A DNA stretch of 42,449 bases from a virus, in IMG/VR virus record IMGVR_UViG_3300028837_003179, positions 1 through 42,449 of that record, one strand, 5' to 3'. Shown here piece by piece: positions 1 through 42,021 of the stretch. The position numbers were made by a program, and so were the translations under genes. The notes under the pieces were generated by a model. That model was given only the letters and a program-made list of their open reading frames with translations, was not told the DNA's origin and made no database searches. Each line of letters starts with the position of its first letter. The stretch's first letter is position 1.

Positions 1-349
1 ACTTTTACCTCGTAGATGTTGCAAAACACTGATTTGTGTCAGTTTTTGTTGCAGTTAATGTTGTTAATTTTTGTTGCGTTAGCTTTTGTTACGCTGCCTG
101 TGTTATTCGTGTTATGATTATGTTGTTAATTATCGTTGCGTTAACTTTTGTTGCGGCATTAACTGTTTCTTGCTGCCGTTTAGCGCGTTAATTTTTGTTG
201 CATTCATAGTCGATTCTTTTTTTTTGTTGACAATTCTAGCCCGCTTATGATTTGATGTGATTTACTTTGATTCAGCATGAATTGATATAAATTGATTCGA
301 TTTATTTCAAATCAATCTTAATTATAAAGCAAAAGAGAAGAGGTTGCTA
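1..349. promoter_or_regulatory. Noncoding control region upstream of the protelomerase, with iteron-like repeats
   Basis: No gene is visible. The T-rich 10-mer TTTTTGTTGC occurs at 43-52, 68-77 and 192-201, with close variants at 83-92, 145-154 and 221-230, all on the same strand, which is iteron-like. TTGCGTTA occurs at 74-81 and TTGCGTTAAC at 136-145; the latter matches the first ten bases of the operator-like site at 36581. From 251 to 316 there are several TTGATT motifs and an inverted pair ATTGATT (291-297) / AATCAAT (310-316). A small hairpin, ACTGA/TCAGT, lies near 29-44. These could be binding sites for a regulator, for ParB/RHH or for a replication protein. No long palindrome typical of a telomere site is present here. 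Confidence 0.5.
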
Positions 350-1573
350 ATGGGACAGAAGCAAGTAACAAAACAAACACGCGAGCGAATAGCCCGTCAG
401 CGCAAATACATAAACAATATAACGACGTTAAACATAGTATCAGTTATACAGATGCTGCCGAAACAGGAACTAAAACAGCTCATACACCAAGCCGCAACAA
501 CAGGAGGAGGACAACAGAAAAAATCGCCGGCTGACATCCTAGACAAAATCATTGATATTCAGTGCAATATCAGTATGGGGAATATTACCGAAAAAGAGCT
601 ATTCTTCTTGCGGCAACAAAAAAAATCCCTAGCAACATTTATACAATACGTTCAAGAGTACAGAGTCTTGTTAAAAAACGCGCTACCGAACGAATACAAG
701 CAGCTACAGCAACAATACCGAATTGAACGGAAAAAAATATTAGACGACATACGACAGCAATGTTTACAGGCCCAGGAGCTAGAAACGGCGATAGACAACA
801 TTTCGAACAACCCACGCCTCTTAACATTAAACGAACAGATGAGAATCATCAGAGCGCATAATCCTGCTGTAAGAAATATCCAGATAGCTCTATATAAAAT
901 GAGCGCAGGACACAACGCTCATCAGCAATTAACAGAGCAATATAAATCAAAAAAAATCATCAGGCAGAAACAACTAACATTAATAAACTCTGATGATTTT
1001 ATACTTACAGCAAAAAAACTTCTCACTGGATCATTAACATTCGATGTGCCAACAAAAATATTATATATACACAACATCATGATGGGGATATGCGCGTTGA
1101 CTGGCAGACGCCCTGTCGAAATAATCAAAACTGGTAATTTTGCGTATAACGACGATTATTCTTTAGAATTTACAGGACAAGCCAAAACTCAAAATATCCC
1201 AAAACCTACTTTTGAAATTCCGACCTTATGTCATTCACGCGAAATCATTGCAGCCCATAAACATCTAAAAACAGTTATTGAAAATCATCCTTTAGGGAAT
1301 CCGGAACTTAGTAATAAACAAATAAATCAGAGGATATATAGCCATAGCCAGCTACCTCGTAATTTGCTCCACAAAACCTTTCAGTTCATATACCCCGCAG
1401 ATCAAATCCCGGAAAAAATCAGCTTAAGGTCTATATATGGGGAAATATGCTACGAAATTTTTCAACCTGATATGAGCAAACATCAGTATCTGGAGCAAAT
1501 ACTTGGTCATAGCAATTCAACCAGCGCGGACTCCTATGTTCGTAATAAAATTATTCAAGGAGAACAGGCATGA
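350..1573 (+). CDS. telN: Protelomerase (telomere resolvase)
   Basis: This is a tyrosine-recombinase-like enzyme that would cut a palindromic target and rejoin each half into a covalently closed hairpin, as in N15, phiKO2 and the Agrobacterium linear chromosome. The catalytic half matches the family: TGRRPVEI (Arg253 or Arg254), FTGQAK (Lys279), SLRSIYGEICYEIF (Arg360), QILGHS (His387) and Tyr396 nine residues after the His, the same His-Tyr spacing as TelN. The N-terminal half is helical and polar. At 407 residues it is close to TelA and much shorter than TelN (about 630), ending soon after the tyrosine and so lacking the large C-terminal extension. The ATG at 350 is preferred over the TTG at 344 because AGAGG lies six bases upstream. 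The stop overlaps the parA start (ATGA), so the two are coupled. Confidence 0.9.
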   Translation: MGQKQVTKQTRERIARQRKYINNITTLNIVSVIQMLPKQELKQLIHQAATTGGGQQKKSPADILDKIIDIQCNISMGNITEKELFFLRQQKKSLATFIQYVQEYRVLLKNALPNEYKQLQQQYRIERKKILDDIRQQCLQAQELETAIDNISNNPRLLTLNEQMRIIRAHNPAVRNIQIALYKMSAGHNAHQQLTEQYKSKKIIRQKQLTLINSDDFILTAKKLLTGSLTFDVPTKILYIHNIMMGICALTGRRPVEIIKTGNFAYNDDYSLEFTGQAKTQNIPKPTFEIPTLCHSREIIAAHKHLKTVIENHPLGNPELSNKQINQRIYSHSQLPRNLLHKTFQFIYPADQIPEKISLRSIYGEICYEIFQPDMSKHQYLEQILGHSNSTSADSYVRNKIIQGEQA

Positions 1574-2175
1574 ATAACAGGATAACTGTCTATAACATCA
1601 AAGGCGGAACAGGCAAGACCCGAATAGCTTTAAATCTGGCTTTAACTTTGGAATGGGGAATCGTCACAAACGATGAGTATTCAATAACAGAGCGAGTAAT
1701 GAGTTCTTCAAAACTCAAAATCTTATCTACAAACGAATCACTCAAAAAGTATCTTTCTAAAATACCTGATCATATTCCTTTGATATTCGACATGGGAGGG
1801 AGGGCCGACAATAGAGCAGTGGACGCTATGAGACAATCGGACTATGTCATCATGCCTGTAATGGCGGATAGAGGGGATCTGCCGATAGGGCTAAACTTTC
1901 TGCAGGAAATGTTGAAAATTAATCCAAATATTATAATTGTAGTGAATCAAACTAAATCAGGTCAATTTCAACAAGTCAGCAGAGTCTTTCAGAAGTACTA
2001 TCCAAAACTTCCGCTTTTTGAAATCAAAACTTCTACAGCGATGTCGCGGATCGTTACGGAAAAACGGTCAATCACAGAGATTATGAAATCTAACAGCCTT
2101 CTTAGGCATCATTATCAAATAATAAATCAGCAGTTCCAGGCAATCATTGAATATATGCAAATAACAGAGGGGTAA
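1570..2175 (+). CDS. parA: ParA/Soj-family partition ATPase
   Basis: This is a 201-residue deviant-Walker ATPase for plasmid partition. The P-loop is KGGTGKT at residues 11-17, carrying the signature first lysine, and the second motif LIFDMGG is at about 71-77. The protein is short and lacks an N-terminal DNA-binding domain, which fits the small ParA (ParF/type Ib) class that works with a ribbon-helix-helix partner. Just such a gene follows after five bases. Its start overlaps the protelomerase stop by four bases, so plasmid end formation and segregation would be produced together. It could also be called MipZ/Soj-like, but the context argues for partition. Confidence 0.88.
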   Translation: MNNRITVYNIKGGTGKTRIALNLALTLEWGIVTNDEYSITERVMSSSKLKILSTNESLKKYLSKIPDHIPLIFDMGGRADNRAVDAMRQSDYVIMPVMADRGDLPIGLNFLQEMLKINPNIIIVVNQTKSGQFQQVSRVFQKYYPKLPLFEIKTSTAMSRIVTEKRSITEIMKSNSLLRHHYQIINQQFQAIIEYMQITEG

Positions 2176-2180
2176 CAAAA

Positions 2181-2510
2181 ATGACAACAGAAAAAGAGTG
2201 GAATCTGAACGATTTCGAAGGGCCAAAGGGGAAAGGAATTCTGCAAAAAGGACAAACTAAAAAAACAAAAAATATGCCTGTCAAAATTAGCATACAGTCA
2301 TATGTTAGTCCGGAGGACAAAACCAGACTTGAACAGAGGGCGCAAAAAGTCGGAATGAGTCTTTCAGGGTATACGGGACTATTATTAACAAGAATGAATT
2401 TTTATGCCGATGACGATGAAAAGATAAAAATCAGAAATCAGGCTGATAAAGAAGGACTTTCTACAGAGTCATATCTACGCTCTCAAATGAAAAAATACGA
2501 CATTATTTAA
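2181..2510 (+). CDS. Ribbon-helix-helix DNA-binding protein, probable centromere-binding (ParB/ParG-type) partner
   Basis: This 109-residue protein has a basic, disordered N-terminus. It is followed by a strand and two helices typical of RHH proteins (VKISIQSYVSPEDKTRLEQR, then a helix with GMSLSGY) at about residues 33-70. A second, similar helix-turn-helix unit ending GLSTESYLRSQM covers about 78-105. The two halves look like a duplicated RHH unit. It lies immediately after parA, where small type Ib partition systems carry the DNA-binding and repressor partner. Its role is inferred from position and fold, and MobC/relaxosome-type RHH proteins are a less likely alternative. The binding site may be among the iterons at 43-230. 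Confidence 0.65.
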   Translation: MTTEKEWNLNDFEGPKGKGILQKGQTKKTKNMPVKISIQSYVSPEDKTRLEQRAQKVGMSLSGYTGLLLTRMNFYADDDEKIKIRNQADKEGLSTESYLRSQMKKYDII

Positions 2511-2515
2511 AAAAA

Positions 2516-2974
2516 ATGACGCATAAAGAATTAGTTGAAATAGGCTATCGCTGGTTGATGAAATCAGTCCGCTGCCGGTTCGCATTTAAAGAGCTAGTAA
2601 CCTACGCGGCAGAAACGTCAGACGTGATAGGATGGAAAGGCGGAGACAGCATTCTAATTGAGTGTAAAACGTCAAAAGCTGATTTTCTGGCGGATAAAAA
2701 GAAGGATTTTCGGCTACATTCCTGGATGGGAGTCGGAAATTATCGTTTTTATTTAACGCCGGCCGGATTGTTTAATACCATGCATATACCCAAAAAGTGG
2801 GGTTGGTTGGAAGTTTCCGAGAAAGGAAAAATTATAAAAAAAATAACCCCGAAAGGTAATATTTGGACAGGATTTCCAAGATTCGACGAGGTAAATATGA
2901 TCTCTGAACGATTCATGCTTTGCTCGGCACTTGGCAGGATTCAGAATAAAACTGATATCCAAAAGTTTTTATGA
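2516..2974 (+). CDS. PD-(D/E)xK-fold nuclease-like protein
   Basis: This 152-residue protein has the pattern of a small restriction-nuclease fold: Asp36, then a glycine turn, then ILIECK giving Glu49-Cys-Lys51, followed by TSKADFLADKKKDFR. Similar stand-alone proteins are common in phages and plasmids, where they are of uncertain role. The C-terminal half (YRFYLTPAGL, WGWLEV) matches the typical continuation of this group. It starts five bases after the RHH stop, with no clear Shine-Dalgarno, so it is probably translated by coupling. It is the last gene of the rightward maintenance operon. Candidate roles are DNA repair, recombination or attack on competing DNA; none can be chosen from the sequence. 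Confidence 0.6.
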   Translation: MTHKELVEIGYRWLMKSVRCRFAFKELVTYAAETSDVIGWKGGDSILIECKTSKADFLADKKKDFRLHSWMGVGNYRFYLTPAGLFNTMHIPKKWGWLEVSEKGKIIKKITPKGNIWTGFPRFDEVNMISERFMLCSALGRIQNKTDIQKFL

Positions 2975-3043
2975 GAATAAATATAGTTAAACCGTGTTTA
3001 TTTTTTACGGCAAGACCGAGAGAGACATGGAGAACTGAAGATA

Positions 3044-3067
3044 GATTCCCGCCTGCGCGGGAATGAC
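3044..3067. repeat. dRS3-like palindromic repeat, single copy
   Basis: GATTCCCGCCTGCGCGGGAA plus TGAC. The core ATTCCC-N8-GGGAAT fits the pattern known as dRS3 in Neisseria. It lies between the convergent ends of the maintenance operon and the late operon. Confidence 0.85.
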
Positions 3068-3886: not shown

Positions 3887-3926
3887 TTTAGACTTGAAGC
3901 GTTTCAAGAAACGATGCAAGTCTAAA
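3887..3926. other. 40-base near-perfect inverted repeat: transcription terminator or candidate telomere-resolution site
   Basis: The outer arms TTTAGACTTG / CAAGTCTAAA (10 bp) and inner arms CGTTTC / GAAACG (6 bp) are separated by a 3-base asymmetric stretch. The centre is the two bases AA. A/T runs lie on both sides, so it could terminate transcription in either direction, in particular the lipoprotein gene that stops at 3972. It is also the size of a protelomerase target and is the longest two-part palindrome I found outside the short repeats. Confidence 0.6.
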
Positions 3927-9906: not shown

Positions 9907-11097
9907 TTATGGAGTGAAATTGACAATTGTTCTGGATGTGTCGAAATCAGATCGCTGGGTATCGCTGATTGGAATATTGTCTGATTCAGTTGGATCAGGA
10001 GCCAGACCGACATAAATCACTTCCGACAATATACCGGGGATATCGGCCAGATTGCCTTGCAAAAATGGTATTGTCACGTCTACGCCTCTACCGAGAGCGT
10101 CACCTCTCTCGACCGTATTGGCCTTGATCTGGTCCTCGCCATCGTAAGGGAACGTTTCATCAACTTCTATTTCATATGTAACATAAATAGCTACGAATGT
10201 TATTCGTGACCAGCGCATGGTGTGCGGAAAACCTTGGGAATCGATAATTTCATATTCAATATTTCCCACATACCGCGTCGCGCCGGGTTTATTATCCCAG
10301 AGCACTTGCGCGACGTCGGAATCAAGCCCGTCGTCTACTACAACTTCTAGTGTTCCAGGAGGCTGCCCGCGTTCATCTACATCGTCGGTATCATTCTCAA
10401 AAACGAAAACTTCAGTAATTCCCTGGATGTTGGAAACTTTACGATAGATCACATCCACCCGTCCGGATCCGCCGCTTGTTACCTGTTCTCTACGTCTGAC
10501 CCGCAGTGCGCTGTCCAATTCCTTTTCCGAGCCTATCACCGCGTCTGCCGGATTAGTGACGCCGGTCCAGCCGGTGACGGGAGTTTCGATAATATTAATT
10601 TGTCCGGCCAGGGCTTTGACTATCCCGCGCTTCAGGGCTTGAAACGGGGCCAGGGTCCCGCCGGCTTCGATTTCGGTTTCATCCAGGAGTTCGAACTTCG
10701 GATCTCCGGAGATGGAAACGAGTTTTCCGGCCGCAACCACGGTTCCTATTGTTCCGGACAGCAGCACGTCGACTTTCGTAAAAGTGCCTAGATTTACATT
10801 AACTCCCACTATTCTGCAATTTGCATATAGAGCCGCGCCTACGCTTTCGTCCGGATCACCGGCTTTATAGACTGACTGGGCTATTTCGAAATTAATTGCA
10901 AGCTGTTCGCTTTCCCCCTGAATCAACTGTCCGAATCTGCCGTCAGTGTCAATATCTTCAACAGCTATCTGATCGCCATAGATGACTTCTAATCTCGACA
11001 GAGTATAGCGTTCGCAAACTGGCTGAGGCATGACGGTGAAGCCTTCGTCATTCAGGCCGTACTCGACTCCTTCAAATAATATTGTTCCTATCGGCAT
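9907..11097 (-). CDS. Baseplate J-like protein
   Basis: This 396-residue protein has the baseplate J (gpJ/gp6-like wedge) pattern. It starts MPIGTILFEGVEYGLNDEGF, followed by a beta-rich N-terminal part. The conserved core is GTLAPFQALKRGIVKALAG, TGVTNPADAVIGSEKELDSA and LRVRRREQVTSGGSGRVD. The C-terminal half holds GITEVFVFENDTD and the LEVVVDDG motif. It builds the wedge ring around the hub. Its start abuts the stop of the gp25-like gene (11097), the usual gpW-gpJ order, so the two are translated together. Length is typical for the family. Confidence 0.85.
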   Translation of the reverse strand: MPIGTILFEGVEYGLNDEGFTVMPQPVCERYTLSRLEVIYGDQIAVEDIDTDGRFGQLIQGESEQLAINFEIAQSVYKAGDPDESVGAALYANCRIVGVNVNLGTFTKVDVLLSGTIGTVVAAGKLVSISGDPKFELLDETEIEAGGTLAPFQALKRGIVKALAGQINIIETPVTGWTGVTNPADAVIGSEKELDSALRVRRREQVTSGGSGRVDVIYRKVSNIQGITEVFVFENDTDDVDERGQPPGTLEVVVDDGLDSDVAQVLWDNKPGATRYVGNIEYEIIDSQGFPHTMRWSRITFVAIYVTYEIEVDETFPYDGEDQIKANTVERGDALGRGVDVTIPFLQGNLADIPGILSEVIYVGLAPDPTESDNIPISDTQRSDFDTSRTIVNFTP

Positions 11098-11462
11098 TAG
11101 ACTTCTCCGTTGATGATAGTGTCGTCCTGATATATAGCGCTGAAAATGATTTTATACTGACGTTCGCCGTCGGGCTCTATTATTAGTTTAGTAACTGCTT
11201 TGACTCCGCGGACTTTAAGAAGGGCATTCCGGTAATATCCGAGAATCAGCGTCGGATCGTTAGTTTTGCGGAAAATCTGGTCGAAGAGGGGGAGCCCTTT
11301 TTTCAGATCGAATTTATATTCTCCCAGGACGGTTTTCAGAGCTGTTTCAATTCGCTGAGCGCATTCGTCTATGCCAGAGATGGTTTCGAAATCACCGTTT
11401 ACGAAACTCATCTCTTGTTTGTCTGTGAGAGGATTGCGGGTGATTTTATAGTCTATGGTCAT
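11097..11462 (-). CDS. gp25/gpW-like baseplate wedge protein
   Basis: This 121-residue protein is of the gpW/gp25 lysozyme-fold baseplate family. It contains the helix IDECAQRIETALKTVLGEYK and the conserved turn FDLKKGLPLFDQIF. YYRNALLKVRGVKAVTKL then leads into a final beta-sheet. Despite the fold name it is structural, with no catalytic residues. It is placed directly upstream of baseplate J with adjacent stop and start, as in P2, Mu and T4-like baseplates. Confidence 0.8.
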   Translation of the reverse strand: MTIDYKITRNPLTDKQEMSFVNGDFETISGIDECAQRIETALKTVLGEYKFDLKKGLPLFDQIFRKTNDPTLILGYYRNALLKVRGVKAVTKLIIEPDGERQYKIIFSAIYQDDTIINGEV

Positions 11463-11464
11463 GG

Positions 11465-11896
11465 TTATTTTTTGTCTAAATTATAGGGATCTCCGAATCC
11501 AGTGACACGGTCATCTGAATCGTCTATGTGATAACAAAAAATGACGCCTGCGGATAAATTCACGACAGGATAAGAGCGTTCTCCTGGAAAGCTGGAAGAG
11601 CACCATAGTTTTTCATCTCTTTGATAAACTATATATTTGCTATTAAAGATGAAAAACGTAGATTTATTAGATGCTAATTCTTTGTAAATATGTTTGACGT
11701 CTTCAGGATGTTCATGTTTGAGTGCTTTCAATTCCTTTAGGTGTACTAAGGAAAATAAGAGAAAACTATGATTAGTTTCGTCATGCATTCTCTGTTTTTT
11801 TAGAGAACTGATGTCCGCTTCGAGTTTAGTGAGTCTTTGAGAACATGCAGATAGGCAGAACAGGCAGAGTAACAATATTTTAAGTTTGTTAGGCAT
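11465..11896 (-). CDS. Small lipoprotein inserted among baseplate genes
   Basis: This 143-residue protein has a lipoprotein signal peptide ending LCLFCLSAC, with the lipidated cysteine at residue 18 and Ser next to it. The +2 serine favours outer-membrane sorting. A helical part (TKLEADISSLKKQ, about residues 23-35) is followed by a beta-rich domain with two further cysteines. Baseplate components are not lipoproteins, so this looks like cargo between the spike and wedge genes, perhaps for superinfection exclusion or envelope stress. It is expressed with the late genes unless it has its own promoter. Family not recognised. Confidence 0.6.
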   Translation of the reverse strand: MPNKLKILLLCLFCLSACSQRLTKLEADISSLKKQRMHDETNHSFLLFSLVHLKELKALKHEHPEDVKHIYKELASNKSTFFIFNSKYIVYQRDEKLWCSSSFPGERSYPVVNLSAGVIFCYHIDDSDDRVTGFGDPYNLDKK

Positions 11897-11931
11897 TGTT
11901 ATGTTTTTTTAATAGTCGACATCCGTTTGGA

Positions 11932-11955
11932 TTCCCGCCTGCGCGGGAATGACGG
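11932..11955. repeat. dRS3-like palindromic repeat
   Basis: Canonical GGATTCCCGCCTGCGCGGGA followed by ATGACGG. The following ~140 bases (to 12103) contain degenerate ATGACG fragments and no gene. Confidence 0.85.
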
Positions 11956-12103
11956 GAAAACACGGAAATGACGGTGGTTATGGCGCATTCATGGGAATGA
12001 CGATGGTTTGTGGTTTTCTCGGCAGTCTCGGATACAAACACGGTGCTCGCGTAAAATGCCCGACATGCGGAGAAATGGCGGAAGTCTGGTAGTATAAAAC
12101 TGC

Positions 12104-12131
12104 CTGGATGCCGGATCAAGTTCGGCATGAC
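12104..12131. repeat. Second-family palindromic repeat, diverged copy
   Basis: TGGATGCCGGATCAAGTTCG followed by GCATGAC. It is related to 9844-9872, with compensating changes in both arms (GCCGGA / TTCGGC) that keep a stem. Confidence 0.7.
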
Positions 12132-12144
12132 AAGGAGATATTTT

Positions 12145-12819
12145 TTATGTTTCTTTGATATCTCCCAGACTTTGCAGTCCTGCGCTAGCTTGAGTTAATT
12201 GTTCCAGAATTGGTTCTAGCAAGGCGGCGTTCGTCGGAGGTCCGCTCGGACTTCCCGGTGAATGAGTGAATGTGATCTCTGTTTTTATATAATTTGCCAG
12301 ATCTGTGAGAGCATTGGCAACCTGATTCACCAAATTCAAAACTTCCTCTTCTCCTCCTCCCAGACGCCCCAAAAACAATTTCGCGTCATCTTGAAGATAA
12401 ATACCGGGTAACGTCGGGTCATCAATTCTGTGTTGATTTTTAGCGGATTGCGGGGCTAAGACAGCATAAGCATTGTTCAGTCCGTGTTTTGTGGTGTCCT
12501 CCGGTTCGATAATTGATGTCCCATCGCTGTCCTGGTATTCGCTGAGAGAAAAATCTGCAAAAATAACGTCGACTGGTGCTCCGACTGCCGGAGGAGCGTA
12601 AAAGAGCACAGCCGGAGCGTTATATTGTCGAATGGGAATATTGTTCAATATGGGCGGATCAACGAACTGTCTATTGAGCTCAGGCTTGATATTGAGCTGA
12701 ATAGTGGCTTGTCTTGTAACGTCGTTATATTTTGTGATATACCCAGGCAGCGACACTTTTATTTCCCGCAGGAGTTTCTCCCGCCATGTCTGCATAATGT
12801 CCGCTATATCCAGTGTCAT
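12145..12819 (-). CDS. Baseplate spike / Gp138 N-terminal-domain protein
   Basis: This 224-residue protein contains the Gp138 N-terminal OB-type domain of phage baseplate spikes. The motifs are VSLPGYITKYNDVTRQATI, IRQYNAPAVLFYAPPAVGAP and VDVIFADFSLSEYQ, in the first ~110 residues. A short stalk (DDAKLFLGRLGGGEEEVLNL) and a helical end follow. It corresponds to gpV/gp5-type central spike proteins that sit under the hub. The start overlaps the stop of the hub gene at 12819. There is no lysozyme domain. Confidence 0.75.
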   Translation of the reverse strand: MTLDIADIMQTWREKLLREIKVSLPGYITKYNDVTRQATIQLNIKPELNRQFVDPPILNNIPIRQYNAPAVLFYAPPAVGAPVDVIFADFSLSEYQDSDGTSIIEPEDTTKHGLNNAYAVLAPQSAKNQHRIDDPTLPGIYLQDDAKLFLGRLGGGEEEVLNLVNQVANALTDLANYIKTEITFTHSPGSPSGPPTNAALLEPILEQLTQASAGLQSLGDIKET

Positions 12820-13736
12820 CAGGCTGCTTCCGTGAATCGGGGCGGGTAGAATATGCCCTCAATAGTTGTGTAATTGGCGTCTGACCAGCTATCACCCGTG
12901 TGAGTGACTGTCTGGCTAGTGAAATTACGTCCGTAATCAGTGGTGTTGAACGATTCGACTTCCAGCAGAGTCCCTGGTCTAATTCTCGGTTGCAGCAGGG
13001 CTTTCAGGTTGACGCCGTAATTAGTAATTTCAGCGTTCAGCAGTCCAGAGCTTTCATTGAGCAGTATGACTGGATCGTCGTTCGGATAGCCCAGCTCGCT
13101 GACCTGGATAATTCCGGAATCAGTGCCGGTAATAGCAAGACTGAATTCCTTTGAAATATCCGTAAAAATCCCCTTCAGGTTGTCCATGAAAGACTTTCCG
13201 TTTGCGAACTTTTTACGGATTTTATTTATGAGGGCTTTGGCAATGCTGACTTTCCGTCCGGACGCTGTTGCAAGTGATTTGATCGCATCTATGGGATCTG
13301 TTCCCGGGGAGAAAGAATCACTCTGCAAAATGTTCAGGTAATAATGATAGTCCACTCCGGTACGTAGTTTTGTGATAATATCAGGTCCTTGCTTGCGCGG
13401 GACTCCTTCCTGCACTTCCCCAGAGTAAATCAGACTGACAACGCCTTCGCTTCTGTATCCCGTGTAAATTTCAACTTTTGGACCTGGGGTTTTAACCGGA
13501 TTGAATGGTTTGGCCAGAACTTTGATCAGGTCCGGACCGGCATTGTAGATTTCTATCAAACCAGGGTCCGGATCGGCGCGGAGCACTTTTTTGACTTCGT
13601 ACGTTATTCTCAAATTATTTGGCGGAGGTTCTCCCAAGGTCTGCTTTGGAATCAGCTCGAAAACTCTTCCGTCCAGGGCAGTGATTCTGAGATATAAGAT
13701 TCTGTCGAAAAAATTATAGCTGCCGCTGATAGTCAT
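12819..13736 (-). CDS. Baseplate hub protein (gpD/gp27-like)
   Basis: This 305-residue beta-rich protein is likely the central hub. It starts MTISGSYNFFDRILYLRI, with early motifs LRITYEVKKVL, EIYNAGPDLI and VEIYTGYRSEGVV, the usual fold of phage protein D and XkdQ-like hubs. The middle contains DPIDAIKSLATASGRKVS, and near the end TLLEVESFNTTDYGRNF. It lies between the plug-like protein and the spike with overlapping starts and stops, the conserved hub-spike order. Length is normal for the smaller hub class. Confidence 0.72.
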   Translation of the reverse strand: MTISGSYNFFDRILYLRITALDGRVFELIPKQTLGEPPPNNLRITYEVKKVLRADPDPGLIEIYNAGPDLIKVLAKPFNPVKTPGPKVEIYTGYRSEGVVSLIYSGEVQEGVPRKQGPDIITKLRTGVDYHYYLNILQSDSFSPGTDPIDAIKSLATASGRKVSIAKALINKIRKKFANGKSFMDNLKGIFTDISKEFSLAITGTDSGIIQVSELGYPNDDPVILLNESSGLLNAEITNYGVNLKALLQPRIRPGTLLEVESFNTTDYGRNFTSQTVTHTGDSWSDANYTTIEGIFYPPRFTEAA

Positions 13737-14065
13737 GCCGACGCCTCGTAGACGAGTATTATTGTATCTCCGAGAGTGTTTATGTCGGGATCATATCCGA
13801 GACTGGTTTGCAGCTCTTTATCGTAAAGATATAGAGATCCGGAGAGTTTTTCGGCGGAAATGGCGGAGTCAAGGAGGTTATAGCCGGCGACGATTTTTGT
13901 TTCTCTCAAAATAACAACACCGGCTATTATTATACTCAGAAACCAAGCCAAATCCCTGCCGTTATGATGAAAATTGAATGTGTATTCGTCGTTCTCGAGC
14001 AGGACATCTTCGGAAAAGGGGCCGCCGCCTTGGACGGTTGGGATTTCTAGGACTTCAACAGGCAT
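13733..14065 (-). CDS. Baseplate plug-like protein (Pam3 gp18 type)
   Basis: This 110-residue beta-rich protein starts MPVEVLEIPTVQG. YTFNFHHNGRDLAWFLSII, then VILRETKIVAGYNLLD, and a final SGSLYLYDK strand match the short plug protein common in small contractile phages. That protein lies between the Dit-like and hub proteins. Stop and hub start overlap by four bases. Assignment is from size, pattern and place. Confidence 0.6.
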   Translation of the reverse strand: MPVEVLEIPTVQGGGPFSEDVLLENDEYTFNFHHNGRDLAWFLSIIIAGVVILRETKIVAGYNLLDSAISAEKLSGSLYLYDKELQTSLGYDPDINTLGDTIILVYEASA

Positions 14066-14402
14066 AGTTTGTTGTGGTTAGGCGGTTATTTTTTCAAGGT
14101 CAGTTTGGATTCCCGCTTTCGCGGGAATGACGGTGCTTTTTGGCAAAAGTAAAATGGCGATCGTCTTTTTTTATGATTCTCGCTCTCGCTAGAATGACAA
14201 GGCTTTTGGCAAAGGTGGAAATGGCGATCGCTTTTTTTTAAGTCCGTTTGGATTCCCGCCTTCGCGGGAATGACAGAAAAGAAAAATTGATTTGAATCAA
14301 TTAACTACTAATTGGTTAATAATTAATTATTGACTAATTGGTTTTATGTTGAGAGACTGTATTTAACGAGTCACGAAACGTAAACAATGAACGGAGAAGA
14401 AA
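14066..14402. promoter_or_regulatory. Intergenic region with tandemly duplicated repeats and a rightward promoter/operator
   Basis: This region has two parts. From 14101 to 14274 there are dRS3-like copies at 14101-14132 and 14242-14274 and a degenerate one at 14174-14198. Between them a ~70-base unit containing TTTTGGCAAA and ATGGCGATCG plus a T-run occurs twice. From 14286 come the palindrome ATTGATT-TG-AATCAAT (14286-14301), two ACTAATTGG repeats flanking the palindrome AATAATTAATTATT, and a possible promoter TTGGTT (14338) - 16 bases - TATTTA (14360). The strand changes here, so this drives the plus-strand cassette. The ATTGATT/AATCAAT pair also occurs upstream of the protelomerase. Confidence 0.6.
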
Positions 14403-14720
14403 ATGATTGAGTGGATAGAAGATCGAATCGAGCTTTTGGAAGAAAAAATTCAAGTCCTGCATGATGAATACGACTTCCATGCTATGCCCGTCGAGATAGA
14501 GAAAAAAGTCGACGCGCTGACGGATGAAATAATAATCCTGGGAAAATGCGACAGGTTAAGGTTTCATTTTTACGGCCAACAAACAAAAAACGCTCCATAT
14601 CTATACAATTATAAAATCGCCGGCAGCGGATCGACCACAATTTCAGTTCCGTGCATGACGACTGATTTAACTCCTAAACTGCGGAGCCTGTCAGCTAAAG
14701 GTCATTTTTTTAAAATATAA
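14403..14720 (+). CDS. Hypothetical protein, first gene of the plus-strand cassette
   Basis: This 105-residue protein has a helical, charged N-terminal half (IEDRIELLEEKIQVLHDEYD, coiled-coil-like) and a beta-rich C-terminal half (TISVPCMTTDLTPKLRSL). A good Shine-Dalgarno, CGGAGAAG, precedes the ATG. No family was recognised. It reads against the surrounding tail operon and has its own promoter region, which marks it as a lysogenic cargo gene. Confidence 0.6.
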   Translation: MIEWIEDRIELLEEKIQVLHDEYDFHAMPVEIEKKVDALTDEIIILGKCDRLRFHFYGQQTKNAPYLYNYKIAGSGSTTISVPCMTTDLTPKLRSLSAKGHFFKI

Positions 14721-14755
14721 CACTCAACACCGGGCGACCGGCAAAGGAGAAACAA

Positions 14756-15304
14756 ATGAAAATCGCGATGAAAAGAACAATCGAAAACGATTACGTCAGA
14801 GTCGTACTTAGCAAATACGAATATGAAGACGATGAAAAAGGATGGGATGCTGACCTTTTTCACGACTCCGACACCGACATATGCAATGAAATAGATATTA
14901 TTCCGCTGCATCCGGACGAGACTTGTCAAAATTTAAAAATCAAAATCAGCGAGTACTCGCCGAAAGGTCTTGAAAAATTTAGAGAGAAATTATTTTTTAC
15001 CAGTACGGGATTTGGAGGCGCGATGGACGCCGTGCAAGTTTGGAATTTAGCATTTAAATGCGGTCTGGTTGATCATAAATTGAAATATAAATTGTATGGA
15101 GCGAAATTCAAGCAAACTGGAAAATTCGAAACCGAGCACGGCATTTTGGGACGCTTTAGTGATAACCGCCTGACACTGTACAATTATCACCAGCGCAAAA
15201 ATATAAAAAGAGCCTACGGCGATAGCTGTGAAATAGTTTATGTTTGCGATTCATCAGACAGATACGATCATCCGCGAATGTTTTTAAAAAAACGCAATAA
15301 ATGA
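14756..15304 (+). CDS. Hypothetical protein, second gene of the cassette
   Basis: This 182-residue soluble protein begins MKIAMKRTIENDYVRVVLSK and is rich in Asp, Glu and Lys. Visible features are an acidic early part (YEYEDDEKGWDADLFHDSDT), a central FTSTGFGGAMDAVQVWNLAF that looks like a helical core, and a basic tyrosine-rich C-terminal part (LTLYNYHQRKNIKRAYGDSC). AAAGGAG lies just upstream of the ATG. The stop overlaps the next start by four bases. No family was recognised. An anti-phage or toxin role is only a guess from its position as isolated cargo. Confidence 0.6.
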   Translation: MKIAMKRTIENDYVRVVLSKYEYEDDEKGWDADLFHDSDTDICNEIDIIPLHPDETCQNLKIKISEYSPKGLEKFREKLFFTSTGFGGAMDAVQVWNLAFKCGLVDHKLKYKLYGAKFKQTGKFETEHGILGRFSDNRLTLYNYHQRKNIKRAYGDSCEIVYVCDSSDRYDHPRMFLKKRNK

Positions 15305-15489
15305 AAAAAAAACCAGGGCCAAAGCCCAAATCATTCGACAAAAAAGCGCGGGGGAAAAGTTTATCGTTTCCTGCTGTCCAGGCTGATTTTCTTGATAGTC
15401 TTGATGAGCCGAGCCCCTTAATGCAAAAATTATTAGCGCAATCTCCTGAGTTTCAAGAGTGGCTGAAACGTTCTAAGTGTTCAAAGTAG
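15301..15489 (+). CDS. Small basic protein, third gene of the cassette
   Basis: This 62-residue protein with the N-terminus MKKKPGPKPKSFDKKARGK carries a KPGPKPK motif that resembles an AT-hook-like minor-groove contact. A short helical region (SPLMQKLLAQSPEFQEWLKR) follows. It starts inside the stop of the 182-residue gene (ATGA), so the two are coupled. A pair of a larger acidic protein and a small basic DNA-binding-like protein is the layout of toxin-antitoxin or regulated defence pairs, but nothing proves this. Confidence 0.5.
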   Translation: MKKKPGPKPKSFDKKARGKSLSFPAVQADFLDSLDEPSPLMQKLLAQSPEFQEWLKRSKCSK

Positions 15490-15491
15490 TC

Positions 15492-15525
15492 CTTTGTCAT
15501 TCCCGCTTTCGCGGGAATGACAAAG
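15492..15525. terminator. Perfect hairpin between convergent genes, built on a dRS3-like repeat
   Basis: CTTTGTCATTCCCGC and its exact reverse complement (15-bp arms) surround a TTTC loop. It lies between the cassette end (15489) and the Dit-like gene end (15548). No T-run follows, so it may act as a bidirectional barrier or mRNA end-protecting hairpin. Confidence 0.65.
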
Positions 15526-15547
15526 AGAGCGCGGGAATGGCCGTGTT

Positions 15548-16132
15548 CTATAATAATGCTGAGCCGATTTGGATCAGCGTTGATTTCGGAGTCACTATTC
15601 CGACATTGTTTTTTTCTGCGGCACGGGAAGAGACGTCCTGAGTTTGATTGAGAACTTTCTGTCCGGTGCGGAATGTTACGAGCTCCAGTTTTTTGAGAGT
15701 GGCCGAAAACTTCGCGCTATAGCCGTCTCTGACGTCAAACGGGATATCAAAAGAAACGAAAAAATAGTCGTTGTAGACTCCCAGGCTCGTGGAGATTGAA
15801 AATAATTGTCTGGCTTCTCGCATTTCGAGCAGTTGCTTTACTTTTTCCAGAGAGCGTCCTTCTTGCGGAGTCAGCAGACCTGTTGTTTGGTTCCATTTCA
15901 GCAGCGGAGTATCGGTAATTATACCTGTGATATTGACTACTGGAGGCAATAAAATAATATGGTCGGAGACTACTCTGCCGGATTCAACTGGATGCTCTGC
16001 TATTTTGGATGCAAAATTATGAGTTTCACTGAGGTAGGCGTCCACTTCGATCAGAAAGGCGGAGGTTTCATCAATCTGAGTGGTGTTGCCGCGGTCGAAA
16101 CCGGCTATGAATGAGTTGATGCCAAAGGCCAT
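15548..16132 (-). CDS. Dit-like baseplate protein
   Basis: This 194-residue protein starts MAFGINSFIAGFDRG. It has a conserved-looking core: AFLIEVDAYLSETHNFASKI, VSDHIILLPPVVNITGIITD and LLEMREARQLFSISTSLGVY. DYFFVSFDIPFDVRDGYSAK and TLKKLELVTF follow. This is the pattern of Dit-like proteins in small contractile phages, which form the first baseplate ring under the tail tube. It follows the tape measure gene and precedes the plug gene, with the plus-strand cassette in between. Confidence 0.65.
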   Translation of the reverse strand: MAFGINSFIAGFDRGNTTQIDETSAFLIEVDAYLSETHNFASKIAEHPVESGRVVSDHIILLPPVVNITGIITDTPLLKWNQTTGLLTPQEGRSLEKVKQLLEMREARQLFSISTSLGVYNDYFFVSFDIPFDVRDGYSAKFSATLKKLELVTFRTGQKVLNQTQDVSSRAAEKNNVGIVTPKSTLIQIGSALL

Positions 16133-20677: not shown

Positions 20678-22624
20678 CTATTGTTTTAGGGTTCCGTAGG
20701 CGACAACGACATGAAGTCCGCCGGCTGTTTGAAATTCGAATTCCACTCCGTTCACGACACGTCTGTTTGCTCTGTCAGCCAATGGAATATCGGAAACACG
20801 GGGAACTCTGCTGACGTAATGATCGCCCGCTCTGGCTCCTGGCGGAAATCCCGTTTCCGGGTAGGCAACGCGATCTTCTAAAAATGGTGCGGTGATGCCG
20901 CGTAATTTGCCTTCATTCTCCAAAATTTGATCCATGGTCGCTTTCAATGAGCCCATGGTGGCGTCACTCATTGGAAGCCTGGATTTTCCCAGTTTATTTG
21001 TGAGAAATCTGAAAATCGCATATTCCATGGTCACGGGTATGAAATCCAGACCATCAGTCACTGTGTCGATAAAAAGACCACTCACGACTGTTCCCTGCCA
21101 GAATAATCTTTCTCCAGCAGTCACATGAAACCAGTTGACGTTATTGGCTTCCAGGTTGTTGATTACCTCGTTTGTGAGATATTCGTCAGTCTCAGGACGG
21201 ACGCCTATAATATCCTCGTGAGCCCAATCCAGCGCACCGTTTGGGTAGGCAAGTCCCATTCCGGCCAGATGACCGTCCGGATAGACAAAATTGTAGTCGA
21301 TTATAATATCACCGGTGGCTACGCCGTTGGCGGCATTGGTGTCAAACTGAAATTTGTTGGGAGCTGGAACGGCGGTGGTGATGGCATTGCCGTTGAGCTT
21401 CAAGTCATCGGCTCCGAAAACAGTCAGAGAATCTCCGATCTGAAAATCGTAGTCAAAAACTATGACGGTTTTCGTCAGGTTTGCGCTCACCGCCATGGTG
21501 TAAGTATCCGTCTTGTCTTTTACTACAACCTGAATGCTTTCGCCGCCGTCCACGATGGTGATATAAGCCAAGGCGTTGATAACTGGATTTTCGAGCAGTT
21601 TCTGGTGCAGGATCGCGGCGATTTCGCTTTGAGTCGGAGCAACAAGCACGGTGATAGGAGTATTGAGAAGGTTTTCTCCGGCCAGAACTTCGTATGCCAC
21701 ATTCTTTTCTTTTCCCACTAGCCGTAAAGAATTGACGTCTTCCGGATCGTCTATGGCTCCCATTTTTTGTTGCAAAACCACATCCGCGTTGATTGCGACT
21801 TTGAGAGCATCTTTGATAACTATCTCGGTATCAGTCGGCACTGTGGCCGTATAGGTAATAATGACGCCCGCGATAGTCAGTCGATAAACAAATGAATTCG
21901 TTGCTCTGAGCACGGTGATTTTATTAATCTGAGCGTCGTAATTCTCGGCTGTGGTATAGCTGACTTCTTCGCCGTCTATATCGATAGTATATTCGAAGGC
22001 TTCCACCACCGCGTCGACTGCGACTTTTTCGGTCTGGGGACCGTTGGCCACAACTGCTTCGCAGACTCCGTCAGTAGTAGTAAGAGTGAGGTCGGCAGCT
22101 GGGAATTGATATCCGGCCTGATTGTTGTAGAAAAATACGGTGCGCTGGTATCCGAATCCTTTTAGGACAGCGGCTATGCTCTGATCTGAGGTTGTGCCGA
22201 TATCTTGGTCGTATGAGCAACAAAAATGTATTTTATGATCACGGGCCTCTATCCAGTTTGCTGCGCTAAGAATGTCAGTCAGCCCTCTGGTTCCGATCAG
22301 AGCATACCAAGTATTGTCTATTTTCTCGATAACGCTCATGGCGTCGGCTACGCTTTGGTCCGGATCGCGACGGCCTACGATGATGCTGTTGACGACGGGA
22401 TTTTGTTTAAAAACGCCCTCTGCGAATTTATAAGCTCTGGATGTTGAGGGAAAATCATTGCCGACTTCACCTTTGCCGTAGCTTTTAGTGACCTGGGTTG
22501 TCTCCCAATTCAAGACATCATCGGCGGTAACGTCCGCCAGAAATATAGGAATTTTGGCGAATACAGCGATGTCCGGGACGCTTTCCGTGCTGATAAAGAC
22601 TTTTGAGAACTTATTTATTTCCAT
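20678..22624 (-). CDS. Tail sheath protein (DUF3383-type) with a large insertion
   Basis: This 648-residue protein is the contractile sheath. The N-terminal core is MEINKFSKVFISTESVPD, the motif DVLNWETTQVTKSYGKGEVG, and NPVVNSIIVGRRDPDQSVAD. The C-terminal core includes MEYAIFRFLTNKLGKSRLPM, SLKATMDQILENEGKLRG and FQTAGGLHVVVAYGTLKQ. Family members are often nearer 450-500 residues. The extra length lies between about residues 180 and 450, a beta-rich stretch with repeated TYTA/TYTM-like strands. It probably forms one or more protruding domains on the outside of the tail. The presence of a sheath makes the phage a myovirus. Confidence 0.82.
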   Translation of the reverse strand: MEINKFSKVFISTESVPDIAVFAKIPIFLADVTADDVLNWETTQVTKSYGKGEVGNDFPSTSRAYKFAEGVFKQNPVVNSIIVGRRDPDQSVADAMSVIEKIDNTWYALIGTRGLTDILSAANWIEARDHKIHFCCSYDQDIGTTSDQSIAAVLKGFGYQRTVFFYNNQAGYQFPAADLTLTTTDGVCEAVVANGPQTEKVAVDAVVEAFEYTIDIDGEEVSYTTAENYDAQINKITVLRATNSFVYRLTIAGVIITYTATVPTDTEIVIKDALKVAINADVVLQQKMGAIDDPEDVNSLRLVGKEKNVAYEVLAGENLLNTPITVLVAPTQSEIAAILHQKLLENPVINALAYITIVDGGESIQVVVKDKTDTYTMAVSANLTKTVIVFDYDFQIGDSLTVFGADDLKLNGNAITTAVPAPNKFQFDTNAANGVATGDIIIDYNFVYPDGHLAGMGLAYPNGALDWAHEDIIGVRPETDEYLTNEVINNLEANNVNWFHVTAGERLFWQGTVVSGLFIDTVTDGLDFIPVTMEYAIFRFLTNKLGKSRLPMSDATMGSLKATMDQILENEGKLRGITAPFLEDRVAYPETGFPPGARAGDHYVSRVPRVSDIPLADRANRRVVNGVEFEFQTAGGLHVVVAYGTLKQ

Positions 22625-28035: not shown

Positions 28036-29193
28036 TTAAAACGAGGTAAAGCGGCGGACAGCCTGTTTGCGTCTGATTTTCATTCCGCTGATTTTAAAAT
28101 ATCCGAAGAATTTAATAACGGTTCCGACGAACTGAGGAGGCAGCCAGGTCAATGGGACTGTATTATCTATTTCGAGAACGTCATCATCATTTTCCCAGAC
28201 TATGCCCATCTCGACGCCTGCCGGACCTGCTCCGGCCAGCTCTATCATCGGGACTATCGTAGTCAGTCCGTATGTTTGCAGCTGCTCAGTCAGCCATTGC
28301 AGCAATGAAATCGGATGAGGAGCAACTGCGGACGTTATCCAATTGAAACGTAGATAATTATAACGATTGAATGATAATCCCATATGCGTGGGGGAATGAT
28401 GTCCAAAGGTCAATTCATTGATCAGGCCGATCAGATCTTCACCCAAATCCCCGTTCAAGATTGCTTCAGGAGTTTTATTCACCCAGAGTTTGTCGGCGGC
28501 TGTGGTTCCGGCCACTTCATGTTCTATGATGTCCGGATGAGTGATAAATCCATTGATATTATCATTCGGTGATCCTATAACAACGATGTCATGCATGGTT
28601 TGTTCCGAGCCGACCTGGGCAGCGCGAATTTTGCGAGCTTCCATAGGTCTGCCTGTCTTAGCGGCTTTCAACAGATCCTCAATAGTTACTTCGAATTCGA
28701 CTTCTTTTCTGACTATCGGAACCTTGTCCTTTTTTTCAACGATATCATATTTAGCGTGGGTATTGCTTGCATCGCCAGATGTGTCGGAAACTCCTATATA
28801 ATCTTCCATCACATAGCTGGACTCGGTATCAGCCGGGTCGCCCTGCGTTTTGACGGGGAAAAGATCGCGGAAATTTGTTTTCTTATGTTTAAATTGGTAA
28901 TACTTGGGATCAAAAAATTCAAATTGCCCCATTGGTCCAGCAGCATAGGCAGTATCAACGGCTGAATATTCTTTTTTATCAGAGAGAGACAATCCTAGAA
29001 CGGCCAGTTCCGCCGGCGTTTTTTGCTCTATTCCAGTGGCGGTCATTTCAAGTGATTTTAGCGCACCGATCAGAGCATTCATCTCTACTGGATTTGTCTG
29101 ATCAACTCCCATATTACGGGCAAAAGTAGCGTCATTCGCCATCAGCATCAACGTCTCAAATGTAATACCCTGCCCTGGTTTTTTTTCGGCCAT
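28036..29193 (-). CDS. Major capsid protein (DUF2184/HK97-like)
   Basis: This 385-residue protein is in the capsid position, after the prohead protease and cement genes. Motifs are EYSAVDTAYAAGPMGQFEFF, FRDLFPVKTQGDPADTESSY, then KVPIVRKEVEFEVTIEDLLK and KIRAAQVGSEQTMHDIVVIG. NDNINGFITHPDIIEHEVAG follows, and near the end PLTWLPPQFVGTVIKFFGYF. This is the arrangement of the DUF2184 major capsid proteins, with an N-arm, E-loop and a P-domain made of paired strands. Length is typical. Confidence 0.78.
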   Translation of the reverse strand: MAEKKPGQGITFETLMLMANDATFARNMGVDQTNPVEMNALIGALKSLEMTATGIEQKTPAELAVLGLSLSDKKEYSAVDTAYAAGPMGQFEFFDPKYYQFKHKKTNFRDLFPVKTQGDPADTESSYVMEDYIGVSDTSGDASNTHAKYDIVEKKDKVPIVRKEVEFEVTIEDLLKAAKTGRPMEARKIRAAQVGSEQTMHDIVVIGSPNDNINGFITHPDIIEHEVAGTTAADKLWVNKTPEAILNGDLGEDLIGLINELTFGHHSPTHMGLSFNRYNYLRFNWITSAVAPHPISLLQWLTEQLQTYGLTTIVPMIELAGAGPAGVEMGIVWENDDDVLEIDNTVPLTWLPPQFVGTVIKFFGYFKISGMKIRRKQAVRRFTSF

Positions 29194-29727: not shown

Positions 29728-30864
29728 TTATCTAGGGAGTTGCTCCAGGGATCTAATCCCTTGAGTCGGAGCGGGGTTAAATACGGGGACATCCGCGCCC
29801 GTTTTGTTGTCCAGGGCTTGCTTGGTGTTGTATACCTCTGTGTTAAATTCAATGTTTTCGGAGAAGGCGTCAAAGGCTCCGTCGATAGCATTTGCGTCGT
29901 CGAGCTGTTTTCGATCCACTAAATTTTTATAAGTTTTTGGCTGCATCTTTTTCAAAACGTCCTTTTCGATTTTGTAAGGATCGGTTTCCGTATCGCAGCT
30001 CAGCCCAACTTTTTTGCCTATCGCCTGAACTGCCGCTAGACGAGCGACCAACGCGCCGATATCCTTCTTAGGGATCATGGAGTCCTGGGCGGTCTGCAAT
30101 GTCGCCAGGCTTTCTTTGCCTGCGTCGTTTGCGGCTTGCAGGCTGATATTTTTGGTTTGCAGCTCAGTGATTACGCTCATGAGTTTTTCTTCTCTGCTAT
30201 ACATAGCGTCTATGGCTACCTGAGAAGTTTCGGGATCATAAACAATCAGGACATTTGGAAATAACTGATCATTGCCAATTTTAAATTCTCTAAGTTCGCG
30301 CTCTTTAGTCGCCATTTTCTTTTCTCCTTTATGGTCTATTTCAAATCTCACATCCGCTCCCGCTCGGCCTGTTGGCACTACGGCCACATGATTATAGCTA
30401 ATCCAGGTCACGGTTGTATCAAATTCTCCAAATTCATTTTTGCCGGGTTTGCCGTCTGCCTCGAAAGGATATCCCGCGCTGGCTTCAGTCAGACGGCGTC
30501 CTAATATATCATCAATCAACGCCTGATCGGTGATGATTGCGTCACCTCTATTATATGTACCGTCAAATTTAGGATTTTCTTTAATGAAACCTTTTCTGAC
30601 TCTCTTGACATTATCAGCCGTGACTTCTTCCTCTTCCGGATGTAGCCGAGTGACGGAGGCATAAGCCAGGGAATCGACGGCGGCTTTCAGAGTTTCAGCT
30701 GGGAAATAACGACGTATTCCACCATGTTCAGGATATGCCATGATACCGACTTTAGCCGCCTTGACGGGAAGATGAAGATCACCTGTCCGGGGATCAAGCT
30801 TTGCTTTCTGAGCGTCTATGGCGAAAGAATCATATGCCATTTCTTTTTTGTTATCGTTAAGCAT
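29728..30864 (-). CDS. DUF2213-type prohead protease with scaffold tail
   Basis: In this 378-residue protein the N-terminal ~180 residues carry a DUF2213-like protease pattern: LPVKAAKVGIMAYPEHGGIR, ASVTRLHPEEEEVTADNVKR, then RLTEASAGYPFEAD and YNHVAVVPTGRAGADVRFEI. The remaining part is acidic and helical (VITELQTKNISLQAANDAGK, ESLATLQTAQDSM), as in fused scaffold domains, and ends GIRSLEQLPR. It would act in prohead maturation and then degrade itself. An internal start at MATKERELREFKIG (about 30315), with a Shine-Dalgarno-like GGAGAAAAG before it, could make a separate scaffold protein. Confidence 0.72.
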   Translation of the reverse strand: MLNDNKKEMAYDSFAIDAQKAKLDPRTGDLHLPVKAAKVGIMAYPEHGGIRRYFPAETLKAAVDSLAYASVTRLHPEEEEVTADNVKRVRKGFIKENPKFDGTYNRGDAIITDQALIDDILGRRLTEASAGYPFEADGKPGKNEFGEFDTTVTWISYNHVAVVPTGRAGADVRFEIDHKGEKKMATKERELREFKIGNDQLFPNVLIVYDPETSQVAIDAMYSREEKLMSVITELQTKNISLQAANDAGKESLATLQTAQDSMIPKKDIGALVARLAAVQAIGKKVGLSCDTETDPYKIEKDVLKKMQPKTYKNLVDRKQLDDANAIDGAFDAFSENIEFNTEVYNTKQALDNKTGADVPVFNPAPTQGIRSLEQLPR

Positions 30865-32591: not shown

Positions 32592-34001
32592 TTACCTCTG
32601 TATTAATTTAGCGTTTTTTGGCTTGCGCTTTGCGGCCATGATTTGAACGATTGAACGTCGGGAATGATTCATTTTACAGGCCCCGGCCAAAGCCTGAATA
32701 TCGGCCTCCCTTTTATCCCGGCCGGAACCGGTATAATTGCGGCAAGCCTCAAGGAAATTGGTAGTTTGTTCGTTTTCGACAATGAGTAATTTTCCGGCTT
32801 CAGCGTCCGGCGTGAATGCTATCGGATCAGGGGCGGGATAGCCCTTCAGTTTATTGGTTTTGGTGCGGCATTGCATGACTTGTCTATAGAGATCGGACTT
32901 TTTATGTCCGCCGACTCTGGTCACGCCTGTGGGATTATCGATACTCCTGATTTTTGAAAGGCACGTTGGCCAGTCTTCGCTAAAATATTCCATATCAATA
33001 ATATATTTAGTATTATTGTTGTCCTTAGCTAAGCCACAGTAACAATTATTTTTATCGATTGTATTCTTTGCCAGTTCTCCCAGCCGGCAAAAAGCAACTT
33101 TTTTGAGATCAGAGGGAAGGTCTGCCTTGTTGATTTTCTTGAACCATTTGGGTTTGATGATCCCGCCTTCGGCATTAATGGGAATTTGCTGATAAACGGC
33201 GTTGAAATCGGCTTCTCCCATTTCCAGACGCACGGACATTAGTTGTTGCGGCGTATGTTTGTATGGCCAGAGGGATTCCCCTATTCCACGAGGATCCAGG
33301 GGATGTTTTACTTTCAGGGCTTCTTTAGTCATCAGGGATGGAAAAGTCATTCTTTCGTAGTACCTGGCTGTGTCCGGATGCAATTCCATGAGACGAACGG
33401 CACGGCCAATAACATCGTCGTTATGCCAGCGTTTAAAAAACAACAAAATGCGGCCGTTAGGAGAAAGTCTGGGAATTGCTACTTTCGTGAACCATTTCCA
33501 AGTTGATTCTCTGATCGTCGGACTCATGGCCTCTTCATCGTTTTTGAAAAGATCGTCGCAGATCAGAAAATCAAATCCTTTGCCGTCGATTGGTCCGCCT
33601 CTACCAGTAGCCAGATAGATTCCGCCCAGCGAGTTTTCCCATTGATAAAGGCCACGCTGGGACATGGGGACGGTCAGATCATTATTTTCGAGTTTGTAGC
33701 GTTCGGAACGCATGACTTTCTTGGCTTTTGCGCTCTTGTCTTTGGACAGTTCGTAACCGTAAGTAGTGTAGGCTATTTTTGCCGTAGGGTATTGTTTAAA
33801 AATATAACCGGGAATCATTTCCGCGCCCGGGACGCTTTTTCCGTATTGCGGCGGGGCTTCTATTATCTGGTTGGGGATTCTGCCGTGTACCCATTCGTTT
33901 AAATACCATGACTGGACATTATGATGCCAGTTCACCTGATAGACGCCAGGAAAGTGCGCCTGGATGAATTCTAGGTATGGGTTTGTTTCGGGTATTTTCA
34001 T
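32592..34001 (-). CDS. terL: Large terminase subunit (packaging ATPase)
   Basis: This 469-residue protein has the ATPase motifs of TerL: Walker A-like APPQYGKS (residues 49-56), Walker B DFLICDD (about 144-150), the coupling motif ILLFFKRWHND (about 184-194), and VYQQIPINAEGGIIKPKWF at the domain boundary. The C-terminal nuclease part is odd. Where the first catalytic Asp is expected I read KVAFCRLGELAKNT, with no acidic residue in the usual place, while the last motif (RDKREADIQALAGA) is partly kept. The enzyme cuts and translocates DNA into proheads. No small subunit gene was recognised. Confidence 0.82.
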   Translation of the reverse strand: MKIPETNPYLEFIQAHFPGVYQVNWHHNVQSWYLNEWVHGRIPNQIIEAPPQYGKSVPGAEMIPGYIFKQYPTAKIAYTTYGYELSKDKSAKAKKVMRSERYKLENNDLTVPMSQRGLYQWENSLGGIYLATGRGGPIDGKGFDFLICDDLFKNDEEAMSPTIRESTWKWFTKVAIPRLSPNGRILLFFKRWHNDDVIGRAVRLMELHPDTARYYERMTFPSLMTKEALKVKHPLDPRGIGESLWPYKHTPQQLMSVRLEMGEADFNAVYQQIPINAEGGIIKPKWFKKINKADLPSDLKKVAFCRLGELAKNTIDKNNCYCGLAKDNNNTKYIIDMEYFSEDWPTCLSKIRSIDNPTGVTRVGGHKKSDLYRQVMQCRTKTNKLKGYPAPDPIAFTPDAEAGKLLIVENEQTTNFLEACRNYTGSGRDKREADIQALAGACKMNHSRRSIVQIMAAKRKPKNAKLIQR

Positions 34002-41975: not shown

Positions 41976-42021
41976 GTTGATTTGTTTTAAATCATAATGA
42001 ATTGAAATAAATCAGACTGAA

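Follow-up and report, generated by a model that had tools for sequence, protein, structure and literature searches.

A protelomerase gene in a 42-kb virus with a predicted contractile tail that appears to form a third lineage of linear-plasmid phages

The record IMGVR_UViG_3300028837_003179, a whole IMG/VR entry of 42,449 bases that is classed as linear and was analysed at full length (hereafter the window), carries tailed-phage virion genes together with protelomerase, partition and replication genes. This 42-kb contractile-tail virus appears to represent a third, separate lineage of linear-plasmid phages. We propose, with a probability of a little over three in four, a temperate myovirus kept as a linear hairpin plasmid, which would rely on a TelA-like protelomerase, on replication by a D5-type primase and on partition by ParA and a ribbon-helix-helix (RHH) protein; we infer the hairpins, the position of their site, the partition role of the RHH protein and lysogeny. 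The telomere phages published so far form two clusters, one N15-like and one contractile and VP882/HAP-1-like, both with long protelomerases that form clades of their own (PMC12042878). Myoviruses with a protelomerase, such as VP882 and phiHAP-1, are already known (PMC12042878), and what is new here is the combination of this enzyme type with an unrelated virion type. There is no integrase among the ORFs searched with Pfam, PHROG and NCBIfam profiles, as an earlier note on this DNA had stated; these ORFs include no transposase either, and no tRNA genes or Rfam families were found in the window.

The protelomerase and its relatives

The protelomerase (telomere resolvase) gene lies at 350..1573 on the plus strand and starts with the ATG at 350, behind AGAAGAGG, while an alternative TTG at 344 would add two residues. 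It encodes 407 amino acids, with a catalytic domain at about residues 205-400 and Tyr396 as the predicted nucleophile. Judged by profile matches and a structural model, the product is a member of the telomere resolvase family. The ResT-TelK catalytic model PF16684 matches at 100 bits (cut-off 27) over profile positions 2-180 of 181, which confirms the family membership proposed in the earlier note, and the Phage_integrase models give no match to this ORF at E up to 1. With phmmer against PDB sequences, the protelomerase retrieves TelA (8e-14), ResT (1e-4) and TelK (2e-4); integrases do not appear below E 1. TelA is also the top NCBIfam model, at 68 bits, which is under its equivalog cut-off of 800.

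Arg253, Lys279, Arg360, His387 and Tyr396 are invariant among the 29 aligned enzymes. The spacing between the catalytic His and Tyr, 9, equals that of TelN and VP882, so the exact His-Tyr spacing claimed for this enzyme holds; it is 11 in ResT and the roseobacter enzymes, and also in TelA (His394/Tyr405; PMC3558466). The further claim that every catalytic motif is present is slightly too strong, because, although the Arg/Lys/Arg/His/Tyr set is complete, the residue three before Arg360 is Ile357 (with Lys356 beside it), where other enzymes have Tyr (TelA, ResT), Lys (phage, roseobacter) or His (Chondrocystis, cyanobacterial). This is a variable pocket position and not a published membership criterion. 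Eleven residues follow the catalytic Tyr396, compared with 206 in TelN, and there is no C-terminal stirrup, in line with the description of a 407-residue protein without the C-terminal extension of TelN. In an AlphaFold2 model made with 29 relatives, the catalytic domain reaches a pLDDT near 90 and matches TelA with a Z of 21.1, TelK with 18.7, ResT with 15.3 and XerH with 10.1; the N-terminal half (residues 1-200) was modelled with low confidence and is too uncertain for comparison.

A tree was built from 33 catalytic domains, a set from which the VHML enzyme is absent. In it the window enzyme groups, on long branches, with TelA of Agrobacterium and three plasmid enzymes of roseobacter type (support 95/78), and every other phage enzyme lies on one side of the tree (92/92). 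Trees constrained to place the window enzyme in the N15 clade, or in the VP882/HAP-1/HY01 clade, are 23 log units worse in either case (AU test, pAU 0.0008 each). That the enzyme lies outside both tested phage clades is therefore firmer than its designation as TelA-like, which is provisional because of the long branches and the odd letter composition of the window enzyme in the tree alignment. The indels are mixed, being TelA-like in the lack of a DPRW-type insert and of a C-terminal domain, and phage-like in the His-Tyr spacing. The suggestion of a branch distinct from N15 and VP882 is upheld by these AU values and by the lack of common virion genes in the loci compared. Among 64 protelomerase loci in IMG/VR, identity to the window enzyme is 36% or less throughout and there is no close relative, and a protelomerase-profile scan of 84,980 genomes returned two roseobacters and nothing else.

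Compared with known systems, the enzyme is closest to Agrobacterium TelA (PDB 4DWP; PMC3558466) both by sequence (31% over 137 columns) and by structure, and shares with it the lack of a muzzle, of a C-terminal stirrup and of a DPRW-type insert before the LGH motif. TelA differs in serving a linear bacterial chromosome, in its spacing of 11 and in having Tyr363 where the window enzyme has Ile. The plasmid enzymes of Phaeobacter pS26_106, Aliiroseovarius, Tateyamaria and Paracoccus p2 are tree neighbours and also short (371-477 aa), but are only about 20-30% identical to that of the window, and their loci have neither window-type virion genes nor a parA in the operon. VP882 and phiHAP-1 (Hapunavirus) resemble the window in the contractile tail, the protelomerase, ParA, a RepA-like primase and the His-Tyr spacing of 9, whereas their virion genes are P2-like with zero similarity to those of the window, their parA is divergent with the tel repeat in between, and their enzymes (520-538 aa) belong to another clade. 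N15, PY54 and phiKO2 share the spacing of 9, partition genes and the linear plasmid prophage (presumed for the window), and differ by their siphovirus virion, by the 631 aa of TelN with its long C-terminal part, and by their clade.

Gene content and genome relatives

The protelomerase stop codon overlaps, as ATGA, the start of a gene for a ParA-type partition ATPase (1570..2175, plus strand, 201 aa) with the Walker A motif KGGTGKT, which matches PHROG 164 (ParA-like partition protein, 4e-11), NF041546 (9e-8) and, below cut-off, AAA_31 (4e-5). It is followed on the same strand by a gene for an RHH DNA-binding protein (2181..2510, 109 aa; PF21983, NikA-like RHH, 4.9e-13), presumably a ParG/omega-like partner and repressor. 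Coordinates and profiles agree with the protelomerase-ParA-RHH operon described before. The next gene of the run (2516..2974, plus strand, 152 aa) encodes a PHROG 631 protein (1e-38), possibly a nuclease to judge from a weak Hjc/MmcB-like similarity, in which the Hjc match (0.08) is not significant. Among 54 protelomerase loci, many of them cut upstream by a contig end, the window is the only one in which the protelomerase gene is followed directly by a ParA-like gene of the same strand, while in eight VP882/HAP-1-type loci parA is upstream and divergent.

The region before the operon is rich in repeats. Six degenerate 15-bp repeats of consensus TTAATTTTTGTTGCG occupy 39..202 on the plus strand (starts at 39, 64, 79, 126, 141 and 188); the window holds 12 matches in all, against 3.3 expected, and half of these lie between the contig end and the protelomerase. 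They are candidate partition, replication or accessory sites. Then follows, at 245..322 on the plus strand, a TGATT-rich array with an imperfect palindrome, a candidate operator or centromere. The 16-mer GATTTATTTCAAATCA at 299 occurs again at 41979 and 41998 (three matches, 0.13 expected), and this pair forms a second operator-like site (41976..42013) that precedes the gene at 41499-41975, close to the opposite contig end. Since the GATTTATTTCAAATCA site is common to both contig ends, these appear to belong to one replicon.

Gene content predicts a virion with a contractile tail, as the earlier note had recognised, with matches to sheath, baseplate J, hub and wedge genes; the virion is of the E217/Pam3/XM1 type. 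The head genes, all on the minus strand, encode the portal (35034..36368; Phage_portal_3, formerly DUF1073, PF06381 5e-53; PHROG 146 1e-70), the large terminase subunit (32592..34001; PHROG 38 3e-51; Terminase_6N), a DUF2213 head maturation protease (29728..30864; PF09979 8e-24; PHROG 530 3e-44) and the major capsid protein (28036..29193; PF09950 3e-33). The 648-aa contractile tail sheath (20678..22624, minus strand) matches the PHROG 205 tail sheath family (9e-42). The DUF1073 and DUF2213 modules named before were recovered by Pfam, while the sheath was identified through PHROG 205 and not through the DUF3383 model, an annotation that its homologue on a Criblamydia plasmid does carry. Between two sheath parts, residues 163-261 show a weak, below cut-off similarity to the Carbohydrate esterase 2 N-terminal domain (E 2e-4). 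The region 9907..16132 (minus strand) encodes Dit-like, Pam3 gp18-like plug, E217 gp41-like hub, spike, sheath-initiator-like and Baseplate J proteins (PF21821, PF22479, PF22759, PF18352, PF04865; PHROGs 817, 196, 120, 6), and is interrupted at 14403-15489 by a plus-strand insert with two small ORFs. A cement gene and an antirepressor-like gene were also recognised by PHROGs or Pfam. Replication is predicted to depend on a D5/P4-type primase-helicase of 729 aa (36970..39159, plus strand; PHROG 1156 DNA primase 6e-51; PF19263 2e-23).

The only sister genome in IMG/VR is G001 (24,948 bp), which is colinear with the window over 20.7-39.2 kb, with protein identities of 34-80%, at least 53% for all genes but one (79% for the capsid protein, 65% for the primase-helicase). 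G001 is a fragment that does not reach the first 3 kb of the window, and no protelomerase was found in it. A primase query of IMG/VR gave no close match, terminase and capsid queries gave G001 alone, and the capsid has no relatives among 84,980 genomes and a top match of 28% among 50,697 phage records. Apart from G001, no relatives of the virion and replication genes (E 1e-5) occur in 75 other protelomerase loci of up to 20 kb each. When 52 window ORFs were compared with the entire VP882 genome by tblastn, the matches were confined to the protelomerase and 27 aa of ParA (E 0.006). The Criblamydia sequanensis plasmid 1 (NZ_LK031773) has colinear portal, DUF2213, capsid, sheath, Dit, hub and baseplate genes at 23-33% identity and also a ParA gene; it differs in being a circular record, and no protelomerase is annotated or was found by tblastn in the 49.5 kb viewed. 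This stretch (NZ_LK031773.1, 40000-89524), from a member of the Chlamydiota, looks like a chlamydial phage-plasmid.

Two further sets of repeats were observed. About 30 dRS3-like palindromes ATTCCCGCNNNNGCGGGAATGAC (consensus AGTCCGTTTGGATTCCCGCcTnCGCGGGAATGACaGAG) occur at 31 places between 3045 and 39190, all but one on the plus strand. The element GCGGGAATGAC has 37 copies on the plus strand and one on the minus strand, and 30 of the 37 are fully intergenic in a window with 12% intergenic DNA (P about 5e-22). Their single orientation, whatever the gene strand, suggests insertion tied to the direction of replication or to a single-stranded intermediate. Fourteen copies match the subtype ATTCCCRCCTRCGCGGRAAK, which the filamentous Neisseria prophage Nf1 targets (PMC3898611), and G001 has no dRS3-like repeat. 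The only other match among phage records is in one that reads like a bacterial chromosome: MW495066.1, "Microcystis phage MaAM05" (274 kb), has metG, ftsH, proS, purB and lepA in the stretch read, and looks like a bacterial chromosome filed as a phage. The host could not be assigned, because none of the named genomes contains a relative and the dRS3-like repeats are spread over too many genera. The second set lies in the repeat-rich intergenic stretch 40948-41369, with 21-bp units AAAAGG..TTCCTACCC and many CTGTTAT/AACACCT units; the AAAAGG..TTCCTACCC array is found again in G001 (L015 7697-7790), and the stretch is a candidate replication origin.

Contig ends, telomere site and alternative readings

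The left end of the contig is 349 bp upstream of the protelomerase gene, and the right end falls inside a gene, since the last ORF, at 42022-42447, has 141 aa and its G001 homologue 347 aa, past which the G001 contig stops in an AT-rich repeat stretch. The window sequence has neither a terminal inverted repeat nor read-through, and neither of its ends carries a palindrome. Among the 39 protelomerase contigs that are 30 kb or longer, 23 end at most 422 bp upstream of the gene, many of them related and so not independent, and a palindrome or matching inverted repeat is visible at about 7 of the 18 such ends examined. The start of the window fits this pattern of contig ends, though it shows neither feature. 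In the N15 and phiHAP-1 records the annotated repeat lies upstream of the protelomerase gene, and together with the contig-end pattern this places the tel site most likely in the missing stretch between the two ends of the window. Two other candidates were rejected: TATACGTATA, the centre of other tel sites, occurs at 19404 inside a tail gene and has no extended palindrome, and the palindrome 36291-36325 lies inside the portal gene. Some IMG/VR contigs contain two inverted protelomerase copies (L064/L065, L047/L056, L062/L067; one has 92,470 bp, about twice 46 kb), likely by read-through of a hairpin telomere.

The tel site could instead be a 40-bp palindrome that lies 2.3 kb downstream of the protelomerase (3887-3926) and has 17 of 19 arm positions paired around a 2-nt loop; the contig would then be a permuted virion or circular form. 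We hold this to be extremely unlikely: its centre TTTCAAGAAA is not self-complementary, unlike those at other telomere-phage ends, one of four shuffles scores equally well, and the annotated repeats of N15 and phiHAP-1 are on the other side of the gene. It follows directly on the last gene of the operon that runs leftward and adjoins a run of A (T on the minus strand), as expected of a terminator. A chimaera, in which roughly positions 1-3,000 come from a linear plasmid of TelA type and were misjoined to an unrelated phage, would explain why the first 3 kb are lower in GC and on the opposite strand, and why G001 stops short of them. The last 1.5 kb are, however, equally low in GC, the phage-wide dRS3-like repeat is already present at 3045, the operator-like 16-mer recurs at the far end before a gene also present in G001, and a protelomerase near a contig end is common in telomere-phage contigs, all of which makes a misjoin quite unlikely.

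It is also very unlikely that the enzyme is an ordinary tyrosine recombinase, acting in chromosomal integration or in dimer resolution of a circular plasmid, so that hairpins are never made. In favour of this reading, XerH, Cre and lambda Int belong to the same class of catalytic fold (Z 7 to 10), no palindrome is seen at the contig ends, Ile357 is unusual, and engineered telomere resolvases can be converted into Cre-like recombinases (PMC12270096). The integrase profiles, however, give no match where PF16684 scores 100 bits, the fold is far nearer to TelA (Z 21) than to the recombinases (10), and for these reasons the ordinary-integrase reading was rejected; the ParA and RHH genes and the plasmid-type primase also fit an extrachromosomal prophage.

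Proposed life cycle and implications

For the linear hairpin plasmid that we favour, the following cycle can be proposed. The infecting phage DNA would circularise, and the 407-aa protelomerase would bind a palindromic site that lies a short way upstream of the gene encoding it, at or beyond the left contig end. Tyr396 would cut both strands across the centre of the site, and each overhang would refold into a hairpin, giving a linear plasmid prophage, one end of which carries the protelomerase-parA-RHH operon. The primase would then replicate the prophage, the protelomerase would resolve the replicated telomere junctions, and ParA and the RHH protein may act on the TGATT-rich array before the operon to segregate the copies.

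Tentatively, and at somewhat less than even odds, the hairpin-telomere lifestyle arose more than once in tailed phages: a lineage with a virion of the E217/Pam3 type may have acquired, independently of N15 and VP882, a TelA-like resolvase of the type known from bacterial replicons and put it into an operon with ParA/RHH genes. A third type of telomere phage, with a short TelA-like enzyme and an unrelated virion, bears both on the question of whether phages acquired this lifestyle more than once and on the source of the hairpin enzymes found on linear chromosomes and plasmids of bacteria. With so little sequence beyond its catalytic Tyr, the enzyme may also be of use as a compact tool to produce closed linear DNA.
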